The position numbers and the translations under genes were made by a program. 64,000 bases of DNA from Schlesneria paludicola DSM 18645. GTDB taxonomy: Bacteria > Planctomycetota > Planctomycetia > Planctomycetales > Planctomycetaceae. The stretch is from the NCBI GenBank assembly GCA_945862235.1, contig CAMAYU010000001.1, positions 62,001 to 126,000 of the forward strand, written 5' to 3'. Positions 114 through 48,209 of this stretch are shown here, in pieces (within the stretch, counting starts at the first letter, position 1; every line of letters starts with the position of its first letter). Under the pieces are notes generated by a model. The model was not told the origin of the DNA, did not search any database, and saw only the letters and a list, made by a program, of their open reading frames with translations.

Positions 114-2234
114 ATGACCTCTTCTCTCGACTCGCTCCTCGATTCTTCCGACTCCACGTTGTGGGAGGTCATCTCCAAAGGGGACGGGCCGCCGGGGGAG
201 TTGCCTTTGACGGAGGAGATGTTGCTCAACGCTCCTTCTGGCGATTTGTTTGGACTGACGCAGAATGCCGGGATGGGGTGGAAGCCTTCGCAACTGCTGC
301 GAAAACAGTTTTTGATTCTCAGCACGCAGGGAGGGATTCGGGGCGAGGACGGTAAGCCGATTGCGCTGGGATATCACACCGGGCATTACGAGGTCGGGCT
401 GCTGATGCGGGCGGCGGCCGAGGAGTTGGATCGGCTGGAGACGTTGCCGTTTGCCGGGTACGTCAGCGATCCGTGCGATGGGAGGACACAGGGGACGGTC
501 GGGATGATGGACAGTCTGGCCTTTCGCAACGATGCGGCGGTCGTGCTGAAGCGGCTGATCCGGTCGTTGCCGACTCGGCGCGGAGTGATCGGTGTGGCGA
601 CGTGCGACAAGGGGCTGCCCGCGATGATGATGGCCCTCGCCGCGCAGCATGACTTGCCGTGCGTGATCGTGCCGGGTGGAGTCACGCTGCCGCCCGCGAC
701 GGGTGAGGATGCGGGGAAGGTGCAGACGATCGGTGCCCGCTTTGCGCACGGAGAGATCACGCTGGAAGAGGCCGCCGAGGCGGGCTGCCGCGCGTGTGGC
801 TCGCCGGGTGGAGGTTGTCAGTTCCTCGGGACGGCCGCGACATCACAGGTTGTGGCCGAAGCGTTGGGGATGGCGTTGCCGCACTCGGCCCTCGCGCCGT
901 CGGGCCAGCCGATCTGGCTCGACGCCGCGCGCCGCTCCGCGCGAGCGGTGGTCGAGATGGAACGACTCGGCAAGTCGATGCGTGACGTGTTGAATGCCGA
1001 CGCGATCCACAACGCGATGGTCGTCTTCGCGGCCTGCGGAGGCTCGACGAATCTGCTGCTGCACATTCCGGCCATCGCGTTCGAAGCGAAGCTGACTCGT
1101 CCCACGGTCGAAGACTGGAGCCGTATCAACCGGCAGGTGCCGAGGCTCGTCGATTGCCTGCCCAACGGCCCGGTCGGACATCCGACGGTGAGGTTCTTCC
1201 TTGCGGGAGGCGTTCCCGAACTGATGCTCCATCTGCGGACGCTCGGTCTGCTGAAGCTGGACGCCTTCACGGTCGCGGGCCGGCGACTTGGGGATGTCCT
1301 CGAATGGTGGGAGCGGTCGGAACGGCGAACACGTCTGCGCGAGTTGCTCGTGGAACGCGATGGCGTGGACCCCGACACCGTCGTCATGTCGCCCGCCGCC
1401 GCGCGAGAGAGGGGTCTCACGAGCACCGTCACGTTCCCGCTCGGCAACATCGCGCCGGAAGGCTCGGTCATCAAGAGCACGGCGATCGACAAGAGCGTGA
1501 TCGACGCGGATGGTGTCTACCGCAAGACGGGACCGGCGCGTGTGTTCACTTCGGAGCGTGATGCCATCGCGGCGGTGAAGGGAAAGGGAAAACCAGTAGA
1601 GAAGACGAAAGGCAAAGAGCCCCTCACCCTCGCCCTCTCCCCGCAAGGCCGGGGCGAGGGGACAAAGCAAAACCCGCAATCCGCCAATACTGACCCTCCA
1701 TCCTCTGGCTCTCACCCTTCAGCCTTCGATCATCAACCCAACTTCACACCGATCAAGGAAGGGGACATCATCGTTCTGATGTGTCGCGGTCCGCTTGGCT
1801 GCGGGATGGAAGAGACGTATCAGATCACGTCGGCGTTGCGCTACTTGCCGTTTGGAAAGCATGTGGCGCTGATCACGGATGCGCGGTTCTCGGGAGTCTC
1901 GACCGGCGCGTGCATCGGCCACGTTGGCCCCGAGGCTCTCGACGGCGGGCCGATCGGGAAACTACGAGATGGCGATTTCATCCGGATCGAAATCGACACC
2001 CTCCAATTGACGGGCACTCTTAACTTCATCGGCACGCCGGACAACGAGGTGACTCCCGCCGAGGGAGCCGCCATTCTCGCCGCGCGCATCCCGGCGCAGC
2101 CGCTGCATTGCGATCCCAAGCTCCCCCCCGAAACGCGTCTGTGGGCGCTGCTTCAACGAGCGGGCGGCGGCACGTGGGCAGGCTGCGTCTACGACGTGGA
2201 TCGGATCGCGGCGGCTTTGTCGCGAGGCGAATGA
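114..2234 (+). CDS. yjhG: D-xylonate dehydratase, YjhG/YagF type (IlvD/Edd superfamily), with an in-frame repeat insert
   Basis: This 706-residue protein matches the E. coli YjhG/YagF branch of the IlvD/Edd dehydratases along its whole length, including the N-terminal '[18 protein letters not shown]' region and the C-terminal '[20 protein letters not shown]' region. The family dehydrates D-xylonate to 2-keto-3-deoxy-xylonate using an Fe-S cluster and Mg2+. Candidate cluster cysteines are C121 ([10 protein letters not shown]), C164 (CDKGLPA) and C235 (GGGCQFLG). The E. coli homologue has about 655 residues. The excess is a stretch at about residues 491-544 between the two dehydratase domains, which carries the peptide [14 protein letters not shown] encoded by a palindromic repeat (see the repeat at 1618-1662). 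Both flanks of the insert remain alignable and in frame, so the enzyme may still be active. No xylose dehydrogenase or KDX dehydratase lies nearby. The function is confident; activity is inferred. Confidence 0.93.
1618..1662. repeat. Palindromic repeat (SPQGRGEG class) in frame inside the xylonate dehydratase gene
   Basis: A C-rich stretch with CCCTCTCCCC is followed after eight bases by GGGGCGAGGGGA, forming a GC-rich hairpin. The same core recurs at 26413-26457 and 27873-27915 within the RNase R gene. The inserted residues fall between the two conserved dehydratase domains and have no counterpart in the E. coli protein as I remember it. Confidence 0.85.
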
Positions 2235-7385: not shown

Positions 7386-7436
7386 CGCGATCCCGGCTAT
7401 GGAACTTGGTCCAAGAATTACGTCGTGTTTTGAACG

Positions 7437-21989: not shown

Positions 21990-22859
21990 ATGTCCCGACC
22001 ATCGACCCTGTTCCTCTGCTGGCTCTCTCTGACAGCCGTCGCTCCCGCTGCGGACGTGTTTGAGCGACATGCCGCTCCGCTCGTGAAACGGCTCGCCAAT
22101 GACGGCGCTGCGACGAAAGAGCTGACGATGGTCGAGGCCTCCAAGCTGAAGCCGCTCGCCGCCAACATTGGTTCGCCGTGCATCGTCCTCAAGACCGACG
22201 CGGGCAACTACACGAAGGCGCTGGTGAGCTGGGGGCTACGAAAAAGCCAAGGGACGGAGAAGCCGACACCGTTGCTGTTGCTCGAACGCTACGCCAGCTA
22301 TCGCGGTGAGCGACTCGACCTGACGGCGGCGATCGGCAAAGACGTGATGCTCTTCCCCGGTTTCGGATTCGACTTCGACATCGGTCAAGTCGTCCCCGCA
22401 GGACAAGGTGCCGACATCGAGTTCACGGCCGAAGGGATTCTGACCGTGTGTGGCGAGGCCAAGCTCGTCGTCCTCAACGGCTCACAGCTTCCTGTCGCCG
22501 ACAAGACCGCGAAGAAGCACGATCCCAGCGATCACGATGGTGTCGTTGCTCTCGACTTCGCCGGGACGTGGAAGTTGAACGCGGACGGTCGTTGGTTGGG
22601 CGAACTGGATTTGAAGATCAACGAAGCGGGCCGCGCGACCGGTTCGTTCACGTCCGACGAGTCCCAAAACGCCTACGAGATCAGCGGCCAAACCGGCAGT
22701 ACGCCGCACAACCTCAAACTGGAAGTGTTTCTCGCCAACACGCAGCTTTCTGTGGACGGCTATCTCTGGACGAAGGACAAGTCTCAGATGGCTGGCACGG
22801 TGACGATGTCCGGTCGCAAGTTCGGCTTCGTCGCGACGAGAGTGACGAGTGACGAGTGA
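21990..22859 (+). CDS. Secreted protein of unknown function
   Basis: From the ATG at 21990 the protein has 289 residues and opens with a signal peptide (STLFLCWLSLTAVAPAADV). Residues 20-165 have no recognisable motif but include a GKDVMLFPGFGFDFDIG segment. The C-terminal 100 residues form a beta-rich module (FAGTWKLNADGRWLGELDLKIN, then GRATGSFTSDESQNAYEISG) similar in character to lipocalin-like or avidin-like eight-stranded folds found on planctomycete secreted proteins. The stop codon lies inside a tandem GTGACGA heptamer array (about 22838-22867). Function unknown. Confidence 0.7.
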   Translation: MSRPSTLFLCWLSLTAVAPAADVFERHAAPLVKRLANDGAATKELTMVEASKLKPLAANIGSPCIVLKTDAGNYTKALVSWGLRKSQGTEKPTPLLLLERYASYRGERLDLTAAIGKDVMLFPGFGFDFDIGQVVPAGQGADIEFTAEGILTVCGEAKLVVLNGSQLPVADKTAKKHDPSDHDGVVALDFAGTWKLNADGRWLGELDLKINEAGRATGSFTSDESQNAYEISGQTGSTPHNLKLEVFLANTQLSVDGYLWTKDKSQMAGTVTMSGRKFGFVATRVTSDE

Positions 22860-22867
22860 CGAGTGAC
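22838..22867. repeat. Tandem heptamer (GTGACGA) spanning a stop codon
   Basis: About four head-to-tail copies of GTGACGA overlap the stop of the secreted-protein gene. Because seven is not a multiple of three, copy-number change would alter the C-terminal residues of that protein. Confidence 0.75.
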
Positions 22868-22940
22868 ACACACCAACCCGAAGCGTGCGCGAGGACGCGG
22901 GCGCAAATCGCGAATCCTCGCGCACGCTTCGGGTGAGTGT
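22868..22940. repeat. Palindromic repeat (AACCCGAAGCGTGAGCGAGG class)
   Basis: ACACCAACCCGAAGCGTGCG (left) pairs with CGCACGCTTCGGGTGAGTGT (right), around GAGGACGCGGGCG-type spacer bases. It lies in the leader of the downstream dehydrogenase gene. Confidence 0.85.
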
Positions 22941-23048
22941 GACTGGCGTCCAAGTTCGCTGGGGGCGGCGAAGCGCCGACCCCAGCCACACCGAATCAAG
23001 TTTGAACTCAACCATTTCAATCCATCCCATCTTTGCAGGAGATGTCCG

Positions 23049-24104
23049 TTGCCCACGATTCAAGAGTCCAGTTTGGTCGAGTTCACGACCGCGTTGTTCC
23101 TCGCGGCTGGGGTCGAGCCTGCCGAGGCGCGCATCGTTGCGGTCAGTCTTGTCGAAGCGAATCTGCGCGGGCATGACTCGCACGGTGTCATGCGGGCACC
23201 GTTCTACATTCAGAAGGTGCAGGATGGTTCGCTCAACCCGAAGGCCCATCTGATGGTCGAGAAAGAGTCGGCCAGCTCGATCGTGGCCGATGGCGGTTGG
23301 GGACTCGGACAGGTTCTCGCACAGGAACTGATGACGAAGCTGATCGCGAAGTGTGAGACCTCGGCCATCGCGTGCGGGACCATTCGTCGCGCGGCTCACA
23401 TCGGACGGTTGGGCGAGTACGCCGAGATGGCGGCCGCGCGAGGCTTCACGTCGATGATCGTCGCCAACACGCACGGATCGGGACAGCGTGTGGCCCCGGT
23501 CGGCGGTAAGCGGCCTCGTTTGGGGACGAATCCCATTTGCATTGGGATGCCTGGCGGGGCAAGCGGACCATTCGTGTTCGACATCGGCACGAGTGCCACG
23601 GCCGAAGGCAAAGTCCGCGTGAAGAAGATCGCCGGACAGCCGGTTCCCGCTGGTTGGGTACTCGACCCGGATGGCAAACCGACCACCGATCCGAACCAAC
23701 TTTACGGTGACCCACCGGGCACGATCCTGCCGCTCGGTGGCGATCAGGCGTACAAAGGCTTCGGCCTCGCGTTCATGATCGACATGCTCGCGGGCGGTCT
23801 TTCGGGCGGTCAATGCCCGTTCGCGAGTCCTCCGCCACCGCTCGGCAACTGCGCCGTCTTCTGGGTCATCAACCCCGAGTTCTTTGGAGGCTCGACTCAC
23901 CTACTGAACGAAGTCGGCAAGTTGGAGACCTACGTGCGCGATGTCCCCAAGATCGACGGCGTTCAAGATGTGACCCTCCCCGGCGATCCCGAGCGTCGCA
24001 CGCTCGCCATACGTCGCGCGAACGGCATTCCGCTCGACGAGGGCAATTGGAAAGCATTGCTCGACATGGCAGGCAAGCTGAACGTGCCCGTTGCGTCACT
24101 GTGA
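23049..24104 (+). CDS. LDH2/malate dehydrogenase family NAD(P)-dependent oxidoreductase, TTG start
   Basis: The 351-residue protein belongs to the LDH2/MDH2 oxidoreductase family (malate, ureidoglycolate and sulfolactate dehydrogenases). It has LRGHDSHGVMR (with the catalytic His), RRAAHIGRLGEYAEMAAARG, the GTNPICIGMPGG nucleotide-binding region and KGFGLAFMIDMLAGGLSGG. The start is a TTG at 23049, chosen because AGGAGAT lies about seven bases upstream and the family N-terminus (helix with FTTALFLAAGVEPAEA) begins right after it. No ATG in this frame lies between the upstream repeat and the domain. Length fits the family. The exact substrate cannot be told from context. Confidence 0.88.
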   Translation: MPTIQESSLVEFTTALFLAAGVEPAEARIVAVSLVEANLRGHDSHGVMRAPFYIQKVQDGSLNPKAHLMVEKESASSIVADGGWGLGQVLAQELMTKLIAKCETSAIACGTIRRAAHIGRLGEYAEMAAARGFTSMIVANTHGSGQRVAPVGGKRPRLGTNPICIGMPGGASGPFVFDIGTSATAEGKVRVKKIAGQPVPAGWVLDPDGKPTTDPNQLYGDPPGTILPLGGDQAYKGFGLAFMIDMLAGGLSGGQCPFASPPPPLGNCAVFWVINPEFFGGSTHLLNEVGKLETYVRDVPKIDGVQDVTLPGDPERRTLAIRRANGIPLDEGNWKALLDMAGKLNVPVASL

Positions 24105-25630: not shown

Positions 25631-28456
25631 ATGCGCGACTACCAAGCTCTCCTCCGTGACTACTTTGCCGCTCCACTTTCAAAGCCGCTCCGGCCGAAGG
25701 AGCTGGCACAGGAGTTGGGGCTGGGCAAGAACGACTACAAGCGATTCAAGGATGCGATTGAAGGACTCGTCGCGGACGGTCGGTTGCTAATGGGGAGCAA
25801 CAAGCTGGTGCGATCGGCCGCGCCGGCGGACACGATCGCGGGGACGATCAAACGAACGGGGAAGGGGAACGGGTACTTCCGGCCTCACGATCCGGCGTCC
25901 CTTGAGGCGGATGAGTCGCTCTACGTCTTCCCCGAAGATATGAAAGACGCTTACACCGGCGATGAGGTGCTGGTGCAGTTGCTCCGCACACGGAATCGCG
26001 GCCAGCGGTGCGGGCGCGTGGTCGAGATCCTCTCGCGCGGGTCGAAGGCATTCGTCGGGAGTTACTTCGAGCGGCGCGATCACGGTTTCGTGCGGATCGA
26101 CGGCAACCAGTTCGAGAGTGCGATTTCGGTGGGCGATCCCGGTGCGAAGGGGGTCATCCCCGAAGACCGCGTCGTCGTCGAGATGCTTCGTTTTCCCAGT
26201 CGCGACGATGCTGGTGAGGCCGTCATCACGAAGGTCCTCGGCGTGCGAGGTGCTCCCGGCGTTGATCTGCTCACGATCATCCATGAGTTCGAGTTGCCCG
26301 ACGAATTCCCCGAAGCGGTGCTGGCCGAGGCTCGATTGCAGGCGCAGATGTTTGAGGCGGAAGAAGCTTCCGTGGTGGGTGGGTCTGTTGCCTCCGCGCA
26401 GCAAAGCGAAGAACCCCTCACCCTAGCCCTCTCCCCGCAAAGCCGGGGCGAGGGGACAGGAGAAGCAGGAGAAGCAGCAGCAGAAGAAGACACTTTCGAT
26501 GACTCTCGACGCTCGACTCTCAGCCCCCGCCTCGACCTGACCCGCGACACGATCATCACCATCGACCCGATCGACGCGCGGGACTTCGATGACGCGATCT
26601 CGCTGACGCGCGAGGACGATGGGAACTGGCGACTCGGCGTTCACATTGCCGATGTGGCGCACTTCGTTCGTCCGGGGACGCTGCTCGACCGCGAAGCACA
26701 TTCGCGCGGGACGAGCGTTTATTTGCCCGACAAGGTGCTGCCGATGTTGCCCGAGGTGATCTCGAACGCACTCGCGAGCCTTCAGCAGGGAAGGGTGCGC
26801 TACACGAAGTCGGCCTTTATCACATTCAGCCCCGAGGGCATTCCGCTCCATTCCGAGTTCGCGAACACGAAGATCAACGTCACGCAACGGTTCGCCTATG
26901 AACAGGTGATGCCGTTGATTAGCGGGTTGAAGGTTGAAGGTGGAGGGTTGAGGGGTGGAGAAGCAAATCCATCGACGGAACCCGAGGCTGAACGCACTTC
27001 CACTTCTTCTGCCCCTCAACCCGCCACTCTCAACCCTCAACCTACTGCCGTCGCTCCGCACGTCCTCGCGCTGCTGCGCGACATGCACGGGTTGGCGATG
27101 ATTCTGCGGAAGCGGCGGTTTGCACGCGGGGCGCTCGATCTAAATCTGCCCGAGGTCAAGATCGACATGACTCGCGACGGAGCGGTCGTCGGGGCGCATC
27201 GCGCATCGCACGATGAGAGTCATGAGATCATCGAAGAGTTCATGCTGGCGGCCAACATCGCCGTCGCGACGAAGCTAACGGATTGTGGTCACGCGTTCCT
27301 GCGACGTACGCATGACTCGCCCGACGAAATGAAGCTCCGCGTGCTGGGCGAGTTCGCCAAGTCGCTCGGTTACAAAACGAAGCCAATGCCGGGCCGGGCC
27401 GATCTTCAGAAGTTGCTGAAGGAAGTCCACGGGACTCCGCACGAGTACGCGATCAGTTACGCGATCCTCCGCAGCATGAAGCAGGCGATGTACGGACCCG
27501 ATGATGACATCGGTCACTACGCCTTGGCGGAAGACAACTACGCGCACTTCACCAGCCCGATTCGCCGTTATCCCGACCTGACCATCCACCGGTTGCTGGA
27601 TCAGGTGATTCAGAAAGAGGGCGGCTTAAAGGGCGATGGTCCGGCCCCTCATTCACATCGCGCGGCGATCACCGTTCCCTCTTCACCTTCCTCTGAAGAG
27701 ACCGCGAGTGTGAGGGGGGCGAGCGGTGAGGACGGTTTCGGTAAGGACTCAGACGCGGGCGATACTGCGAGTTCGGTCGTTAGCTCGCTCACGGAACGAC
27801 GGGACGGTTCTTCGTCCGAGCTTCGAGTCGATGCCGACGGAAGACGAGCGAAGAAAAAGCCAAAGGCGAAGAGCCCTCACCCGGGCCCTCTCTCCGCAAA
27901 GCCGGGGCGAGGGGACAAGCACAGCGAAGGCGGGAGAACAAAAGGCGGGAGAGACGAGGGGCGGAAGGAGAGTCGCTTCCCCAGCGAACTCATCATGCTC
28001 GGCAAATGGTGTTCGATGACGGAGCGTCGGGCGCAGGAGGCCGAACGCGAACTGATCAAGCTCAAACTGCTCGGGTATCTCGCCAATCACATCGGCGACG
28101 AGTTGCATGCAACGATCACGGGAGTCGAAAAATTTGGCCTGTTTTGCACCGGGATCGAACTCCCCGCCGAGGGTCTCGTCCACATCAGCACGATGGGTGA
28201 TGACCAGTATGACTATGACGACCGCTCGCACACGCTGGTCGGCCGCCGCAGTAATCGCACGTATCGACTGGGTGACTTCGTGAAAGTGGTCGTCGCCAAA
28301 GTGGACCTCGCCGAACGAAAGCTGGAGATGCGATTGGTGATCGATCCGCGTGACGGATCAAATGAGTCGAGGCGACGCGAAACACAGTCGCGACAGGATC
28401 GCGAAGCTCCTCGACACGGATCGCACGGCCCGCCGAAGCGAGGCCGACGCCGGTAA
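25631..28456 (+). CDS. rnr: Ribonuclease R (RNB family) carrying three in-frame repeat insertions
   Basis: The 941-residue protein degrades structured RNA 3' to 5'. It has an N-terminal winged-helix region, cold-shock domains, the RNB catalytic motif TIDPIDARDFDDAISL (acidic Mg2+ ligands), HFTSPIRRYPDLTIHRLLDQ, a C-terminal S1 domain (GVEKFGLFC...VHISTMGDD) and a basic Arg/Lys tail. Typical RNase R has about 700-820 residues. The excess lies in three linkers encoded by palindromic repeats: about residues 261-276 ([13 protein letters not shown]), 431-471 (LKVEGGGLRGG ... ATLNPQP) and 660-785 (a long polar stretch containing SPHPGPLSAKPGRG). The insertions keep the frame and spare every catalytic motif. 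The start at 25631 follows a plain leader. Confidence 0.93.
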   Translation: MRDYQALLRDYFAAPLSKPLRPKELAQELGLGKNDYKRFKDAIEGLVADGRLLMGSNKLVRSAAPADTIAGTIKRTGKGNGYFRPHDPASLEADESLYVFPEDMKDAYTGDEVLVQLLRTRNRGQRCGRVVEILSRGSKAFVGSYFERRDHGFVRIDGNQFESAISVGDPGAKGVIPEDRVVVEMLRFPSRDDAGEAVITKVLGVRGAPGVDLLTIIHEFELPDEFPEAVLAEARLQAQMFEAEEASVVGGSVASAQQSEEPLTLALSPQSRGEGTGEAGEAAAEEDTFDDSRRSTLSPRLDLTRDTIITIDPIDARDFDDAISLTREDDGNWRLGVHIADVAHFVRPGTLLDREAHSRGTSVYLPDKVLPMLPEVISNALASLQQGRVRYTKSAFITFSPEGIPLHSEFANTKINVTQRFAYEQVMPLISGLKVEGGGLRGGEANPSTEPEAERTSTSSAPQPATLNPQPTAVAPHVLALLRDMHGLAMILRKRRFARGALDLNLPEVKIDMTRDGAVVGAHRASHDESHEIIEEFMLAANIAVATKLTDCGHAFLRRTHDSPDEMKLRVLGEFAKSLGYKTKPMPGRADLQKLLKEVHGTPHEYAISYAILRSMKQAMYGPDDDIGHYALAEDNYAHFTSPIRRYPDLTIHRLLDQVIQKEGGLKGDGPAPHSHRAAITVPSSPSSEETASVRGASGEDGFGKDSDAGDTASSVVSSLTERRDGSSSELRVDADGRRAKKKPKAKSPHPGPLSAKPGRGDKHSEGGRTKGGRDEGRKESRFPSELIMLGKWCSMTERRAQEAERELIKLKLLGYLANHIGDELHATITGVEKFGLFCTGIELPAEGLVHISTMGDDQYDYDDRSHTLVGRRSNRTYRLGDFVKVVVAKVDLAERKLEMRLVIDPRDGSNESRRRETQSRQDREAPRHGSHGPPKRGRRR
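26413..26457. repeat. Palindromic repeat (SPQGRGEG class) inside RNase R
   Basis: CCCTCACCCTAGCCCTCTCC, then GCAAAGCC, then GGGGCGAGGGGA; the same core as at 1618-1662. Read in the same frame as in the xylonate dehydratase gene, it yields [13 protein letters not shown]. Confidence 0.88.
26925..27042. repeat. Second palindrome class (GGTTGAAGGTTGAAGG) inside RNase R
   Basis: GGTTGAAGGTTGAAGGTGG...GAGGGGTGG (26925-26963) and the complement-like CTGCCCCTCAACCCGCC...AACCCTCAACC (to 27042) form an imperfect inverted repeat around a variable 45-base spacer. It lies between two conserved RNB-domain segments. Confidence 0.8.
27873..27915. repeat. SPQGRGEG-class palindrome inside RNase R, read in another frame
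   Basis: GCCCTCACCCGGGCCCTCTC, GCAAAGCC, GGGGCGAGGGGA. This copy is translated in a different frame (SPHPGPLSAKPGRG) from the other two, so the DNA element rather than the peptide is conserved. Confidence 0.85.
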
Positions 28457-47388: not shown

Positions 47389-47772
47389 GTGAGAGACCTT
47401 TTTTTGAGAGACTGAACTGTACTGAGTTGAAACCAACCAAACTTTGCCGCCGGTGCCCGTTGAGTACGGAACAACAACCGGCTGCGAGTCCAGAATTCAC
47501 CAGTGTGTGGCGAGTGAATTCCGAACGATTGCCAGACTGATTCAGCTTCCGGGCCCTGGCCGCTGAACCAACCTCGTCTGACGCGAGGAGACCGCCTGTG
47601 GCTCGCGACGCCGCAGGCAATTGCACCCAACACGGAATCAGGTCGGCGAGACCGTCTCCGAGAAAATTCACTGACTTGAGTCCACGTGCTCCCCCGCCAA
47701 CGACGGGGAGGTCGGACACTAACCTCAAAGAATCGTGCCCATCGGGGCGGCGAACGCCAGCGTTCGCGGCCA

Positions 47773-47961
47773 ATGGCCATCTCGCTCTGCCGTGCCGGAA
47801 CTCCCTCGCTTTGCGAGTGAAGCCGGAGTTGCGGCAGGTCTGTATCCACAGGGAGGCCCGACCCGAAGATCGGGGACCGCCCCGCAAGGAACTCAGAGGC
47901 GTTTCGATCTCGGTACTTGGGTGTTTTCCCGAAGTCGAAGGTCGCGTCCCGAGCAGTAGTT
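47773..47961. repeat. 189-bp direct repeat, copy 1 (hairpin-rich)
   Basis: It begins ATGGCCATCTCGCT and ends GAGCAGTAGTT. It contains several hairpins: CCGGAACTCC/GGAGTTGCGG around CTCGC-TTT-GCGAG, CTGT-ATCC-ACAG, and CCCGA-AGA-TCGGG. It is nearly identical to copy 2, 248 bases downstream. Confidence 0.92.
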
Positions 47962-48020
47962 CACGTCATTGGCCATCTCGCCAGTCAAGTGCCGAAGCGT
48001 CACTTCGACACTTGCCGCCG

Positions 48021-48209
48021 ATGGCCATCTCGCTCCGCCGTGCCGGAACTCCCTCGCTTTGCGAGTGAAGCCGGAGTTGCGGCAGGCCTGTATCCACAGG
48101 GCGGGCCGACCCGAAGATCGGGGACCGCCCCGCAAGGAACTCAGAGGCGTTTCGATCCCGGTACTTGGGTGTTTTCCCGAAGTCGAAGGTCGCGTCCCGA
48201 GCAGTAGTT
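48021..48209. repeat. 189-bp direct repeat, copy 2 (hairpin-rich)
   Basis: It has the same length and boundaries as copy 1, with only a handful of substitutions. The 59-base spacer between the copies has its own partial GGCCATCTCGCC match to the repeat start. Confidence 0.92.

Follow-up and report, generated by a model that had tools for sequence, protein, structure and literature searches.

In-frame palindromic repeats in three loops of the RNase R gene of a Schlesneria-related planctomycete

Known dispersed and intragenic palindromes

REPINs are units in which a short palindrome is present twice in inverted orientation, and which occur in high copy number as copies similar to each other, are mainly extragenic, and are associated with a RAYT transposase. 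Short tandem heptamer repeats, for their part, occur in cyanobacteria. REPs and REP dimers have been described inside open reading frames (ORFs), where they are read as protein: uvrA is hit at two sites, and the dimers or groups of REPs encode 20-30 amino acids, RNase R being absent from the main text of that report (PMC3733652). Finally, the Rickettsia RPEs, with a length of ~105-150 bp, are palindromic selfish DNA inserted in frame into numerous conserved genes that are unrelated to each other, and one tested host protein stays active despite its insert (Ogata 2000, as described in PMC10969869 and PMC2229807).

The present analysis deals with two repeat classes, A and B, in a Schlesneria-related planctomycete whose genome is available as a 6.83-Mb draft, and more precisely with an RNase R gene located in the window, i.e. 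the whole stretch of 64,000 nucleotides that was analysed. The class A consensus, AAGAACCCCTCACCCTAnCCCTCTCCCCGCAAAGCCGGGGCGAGGGGACA, defines a unit of ~50 nt. As in REPINs, neighbouring class A copies are paired at short distance in a fixed inverted orientation, but ~40% of the copies lie in predicted genes, whereas REPINs are mainly extragenic. Like the GTAG/CGTC REPs, class A is a short palindrome dispersed in high copy number in one genome, from which it differs in that its consensus carries neither GTAG nor CGTC at the stem and in that no class A copy was detected in the ~1.5-kb flanks of six Y1_Tnp (RAYT-like) loci of the draft assembly. Since both the tag and, as tested, the RAYT neighbour are missing, class A is termed REP-like rather than a GTAG/CGTC REP. 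The class B arms resemble short tandem heptamer repeats, being short arrays of seven-base units, but they can pair in inverted orientation and thereby form long hairpins. The likeness is also clear with the intragenic REPs, in that class A too is a short high-copy palindrome present as single copies or dimers in coding genes, including uvrA (PMC3733652). With respect to the RPEs, class A likewise occurs in frame in a wide range of unrelated, conserved genes, a likeness of behaviour, and differs in its shorter unit and in its planctomycete instead of Rickettsia host (PMC10969869, PMC2229807). In-frame intragenic palindromes are already known from Rickettsia and other bacteria, and class A behaves alike in a planctomycete. 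In the open-licence literature, no paper was found on Schlesneria repeats or on insertions in planctomycete RNase R.

The RNase R protein and its three linkers

The gene (25631..28456, + strand) is an intact ORF of 941 aa encoding RNase R, an RNB-family 3'-5' exoribonuclease. Pfam recognises RNB (E=2e-94), CSD2, OB_RNB, and S1 in it, with two cold-shock/OB domains, and the nearest solved structures in terms of both sequence and fold are RNase R, e.g. 8cdu (30S-bound) and 5xgu (E. coli). The protein thus has the CSD-RNB-S1 architecture of the family together with the RNB catalytic acidic motif, whose residues D312, D318, D320, and D321 are invariant in an alignment of 51 sequences, the other invariant residues being retained as well; the survival of the catalytic motifs announced by an earlier note on this DNA is thereby borne out. 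AlphaFold2 assigns a pLDDT <50 to aa 252-296, 438-468, and 670-777 and to the C-terminal tail, while the remainder is well modelled with a normal RNase R fold (mean 76, pTM 0.74).

The three internal low-confidence segments are the three linkers of the protein, each of which connects two secondary-structure elements. Linker 1 (26354..26527, + strand; aa 242-299, 58 aa) joins the CSD2 part to the RNB domain, linker 2 (26918..27049, + strand; aa 430-473, 44 aa) lies within the RNB domain with two flanking helices, and linker 3 (27611..27985, + strand; aa 661-785, 125 aa) leads from the RNB domain to the last helix before S1. Mapping on the predicted structure and the alignment, as the earlier note had proposed, places the inserts in loops and leaves the enzyme core intact, and the exonuclease core should keep working with its linkers in place.

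In the 50 planctomycete relatives of the alignment, the median lengths of the three linkers are 7, 10, and 11 aa, and the RNase R of the window is the longest at all three. Taken together, its linkers amount to 227 aa, compared to ~28 expected from these medians, giving ~199 extra residues, at the upper end of the 150-200 that had been estimated from the gene alone. Some 90 of them correspond to recognisable repeat DNA, and about half match no repeat. Linker 1 measures 7 aa in most relatives, including G009, whose RNase R is the nearest to that of the window, a length that, judging from the alignment, appears to represent the empty-like state. Linker 3 is also long in G009 (114 aa), although that genome has no class A match. 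When linkers 1 and 3 were each folded whole, no unusually strong folding was found.

Repeat copies within the gene

Two palindromic repeat classes in frame in RNase R had been claimed, and both are present. Class A is represented by a copy at 26409..26458 (+ strand, sense; 54.9 bits) in linker 1 and a second one at 27869..27917 (+ strand, sense; 43.6 bits) in linker 3, whose frame is read as PHPGPLSAKPGRG; the best score among 300 codon-shuffled genes was 6.0. The first copy is identical in 50 of 50 nt to L116:1929-1978, which lies within an unrelated cytochrome gene. The two copies are translated in two different frames, the second one giving KSPHPGPLSAKPGRGD, in agreement with what had been noticed earlier. 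Tested as single-strand hairpins, they reach z values of -2.2 (26409) and -0.8 (27869), the class having two alternative left arms and one common right arm.

A third, decayed class A copy, missed in the first reading, is found in antisense at 27674..27723 (- strand) in linker 3, with 37 of 50 nt identical to L146:12589-12634 and an alignment score of 48 compared to a maximum of 38 in 100 shuffles. The class A HMM did not find it, and since a genome-wide DNA-level search with the 255-nt stretch 27612-27866 matched only itself, this copy rests on direct alignment. It is probably the dimer partner of the 27869 copy, from which it is separated by a spacer of 145 nt in the expected '-+' orientation. 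Further class A traces sought in the linkers beyond these copies were no better than shuffles, or marginal (site 2, equalled by 2 of 40 shuffles).

Class B, the GGTTGAAGG-class, forms a hairpin at 26920..27047 (no strand assigned) in linker 2, in which inverted arms of GGTTGAA-type heptamers (~26924-26963 and 27000-27045) enclose an unrelated loop. The region 26919-27050 folds at -68.3 kcal/mol, where shuffled sequences average -40.4 (z -7.2), and a second test gave z -5.6; the arms recur elsewhere in the genome.

Class A across the genome

The genome sample comprised 100 stretches and the window, ~2.06 Mb in total, three hit-rich contigs being excluded from the rate estimates. The resulting 2.0-Mb unbiased sample holds 78 class A copies, which scales to ~260 per genome. 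Forty-six of them lie between predicted genes, and 24 sense and 8 antisense copies lie within genes, compared to a predicted coding fraction of 77%, these in-gene counts being approximate as the gene calls stem from a simple purpose-written codon model. The copies are discrete and dispersed, with sharp borders, conservation falling to background at ~5 nt on the upstream side and ~6 nt on the downstream side. Close pairs are oriented '-+' in 14 of 16 cases and '+-' in none, with spacers of 28-204 nt, so that the '-+' dimer, with its inverted ends TGTCCCC...GGGGACA, is probably one mobile unit, as in REPINs.

Identity of the core to the consensus is 93% in genes and 94% between them, and several frames are used; since genic and intergenic copies are near-equally close to the consensus, the DNA is the conserved unit, as the earlier note had proposed. 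Stops interrupt a single frame of the sense consensus and two frames of the antisense one. Of 47 intergenic copies, 42 have two open sense frames, and open antisense frames are less frequent; this distribution of stops fits the excess of sense copies in genes. The genic sense copies use their frames in a ratio of 17:4:1 although most of them have two open frames, an unevenness that chance and stops do not explain. A bias of the changes in genic copies towards certain codon positions (21/6/15, p=0.02) was discarded, one variable spot being located at fixed codon positions.

The family is unevenly spread over related genomes: G014 has 23 matches, the genus otherwise shows few or none, and G009, like G010-G012, has none at all. 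Given this distribution, together with the high copy number in the present genome, the amplification of class A looks recent. No pair of genomes with exactly the same site filled in one and empty in the other was found among those compared, and no target-site duplication is therefore readable. The collections searched yielded no close strain of this species.

The window also holds other repeats. Another high-copy family, ACACCAACCCGAAGCGTGAGCGAGG, with ~50 copies in 1.66 Mb, is present at positions 7432, 22865, and 32263; a 196-nt direct repeat occupies 47766-47961 and 48014-48209 (96% identical, start-to-start distance 248 nt); and an AGTGACG heptamer array at 22838-22869 overlaps the start of the ORF 22863-24104.

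RNase R among the genes carrying class A

Class A copies are found in frame in unrelated conserved genes of many kinds, among which RNase R, UvrA, oxoprolinase, a NirB-like protein, IlvD (in the same window, an IlvD/Edd-type dehydratase carries one in frame at 1615..1664, + strand), a TrpE/PabB-like enzyme, a PLP decarboxylase, HypD, and many planctomycete PSCyt/PSD proteins. In the 2.0-Mb sample, five genes have at least two separate class A events, compared to 0.45 expected at random, which indicates a clustering of events in tolerant genes. Contigs chosen for their richness in class A hits hold three other genes with even more copies: the heaviest load seen is that of a UvrA ORF of 2628 aa cut at the contig end (L276:11053-18936), with eight copies arranged as four inverted dimers, followed by an oxoprolinase ORF (L277) with six and a nitrite-reductase-like ORF (L278) with five. 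RNase R is one of several multi-copy genes, and its description in the earlier note as a remarkable hotspot does not hold.

The same applies to its description as an essential-type housekeeping enzyme. Full-length RNase R is absent from 9 of the 15 genomes of the genus, and is therefore not essential in it: G001-G008 have instead an RNB-domain protein of ~500 aa (L237-L244), and in G014 no RNB protein was found. Besides, G011 carries both the full RNase R and the ~500-aa kind, and the short one of G012 is broken.

The same loops in relatives

The RNase R loops of other planctomycetes hold unrelated hairpin repeats that are native to those genomes, an observation that is new here. G047 and G051 belong to different genera, two in all, within another family; in both, site 2 holds a GC-rich inverted repeat (folding z of -12.7 and -4.1, respectively) with 115 and 37 matches in their own genomes. 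In G011 and G012, which belong to the same genus as the genome of the window, site 1 holds inverted AGTAACG/AGTGACG heptamers with 16 and 8 matches in their own genomes. Between the RNase R genes of these last two (L044 and L042), DNA identity is 89-95% outside sites 1 and 2 and drops to 74% and 71% in the two sites themselves, which also contain indels. The outcome that the earlier note had named as refuting its reading, the same peptide encoded by different codons in relatives, was not seen, the linkers of the relatives being unrelated.

Origin of the inserts

Very probably, REPIN-like mobile class A units and class B hairpins insert or expand throughout the genome, and the loops of RNase R have accumulated in-frame copies that are tolerated. 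Class A would be a non-autonomous mobile palindrome of ~50 nt, often a '-+' dimer, inserting widely by transposition through a moving enzyme, and class B heptamer-repeat hairpins would likewise insert or expand genome-wide. Insertions in genes would persist only if the frame is kept, no stop is introduced, and the loop is tolerant, the others, including those that hit the core, being purged by selection. Having three tolerant loops, RNase R would thereby have gained one class B hairpin and two class A events, of which one is probably a complete dimer whose second copy has decayed, with the inserts presumably translated as disordered linkers that are close to neutral.

The part of this explanation that concerns class B meets a serious competitor, to which we give a little less than an even chance and which is compatible with the explanation given for class A: class B would be a local heptamer expansion, by slippage and inverted duplication, mobility being restricted to class A. 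The presence of 14 period-7 arrays with several unrelated motifs, compared to 0-5 for the other periods from 4 to 12, points in this direction, as do the varying arm lengths and the loops, which appear mutually unrelated. However, class B loci recur genome-wide, partly as inverted arms, and 4 of 25 are within 200 nt of a class A copy compared to 0.43 expected.

That the loops are merely long, of low complexity, and fast-evolving, having grown by ordinary linker evolution in which mobile DNA is not involved, is improbable. The 114-aa linker 3 of G009 and the half of the extra residues that match no repeat would be in line with it, but the exact 50-nt identity with the copy of an unrelated gene, the use of several frames, the sharp borders, and the antisense copies refute it for the class A parts.

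A third possibility, considerably doubtful, is that the repeats are retained for the function of RNase R, for example because hairpins in the mRNA delay its translation or act back on its decay, or because the linkers bind RNA or partners. Hairpins derived from unrelated repeat families do occur in the RNase R loops of three lineages, and those at site 2 reach -68 and -136 kcal/mol, a very high stability. Nevertheless, the same repeats are carried by uvrA, the NirB-like, oxoprolinase, IlvD, and TrpE/PabB-like genes, and many cytochrome genes, which have nothing in common, most relatives have short loops, and the full gene is dispensed with in most of the genus. Slightly less probable still is the broader proposal that the RNase R loops are recurrent landing sites for unrelated hairpin repeats across Planctomycetota since the rnr mRNA makes use of its hairpins, e.g. 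in a feedback loop where the enzyme, able to degrade structured RNA, encounters them in its own transcript. Finally, an assembly artefact or a decayed gene, as might be feared from a draft in 377 contigs, is hardly credible for a gene located in a continuous 142-kb contig, with a frame open throughout, a positive coding score, and its invariant residues kept, all the more as independent assemblies carry similar inserts.

Significance

Under the explanation by REPIN-like class A units and class B hairpins, Planctomycetota offer a case of selfish palindromes residing in protein-coding genes. The load of class A, with tens of copies in genes and up to eight per ORF, allows the study of the tolerance of proteins towards such inserts. 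A word of caution is that the annotation and the protein alignments of these genomes include repeat-derived linkers, e.g. SPQSRGEG and PHPNPLPAKPGRG. In this context, RNase R constitutes a natural series, in which the same loops hold different repeat families depending on the lineage and are short in others, and the effect of the linkers on one enzyme is therefore directly testable.
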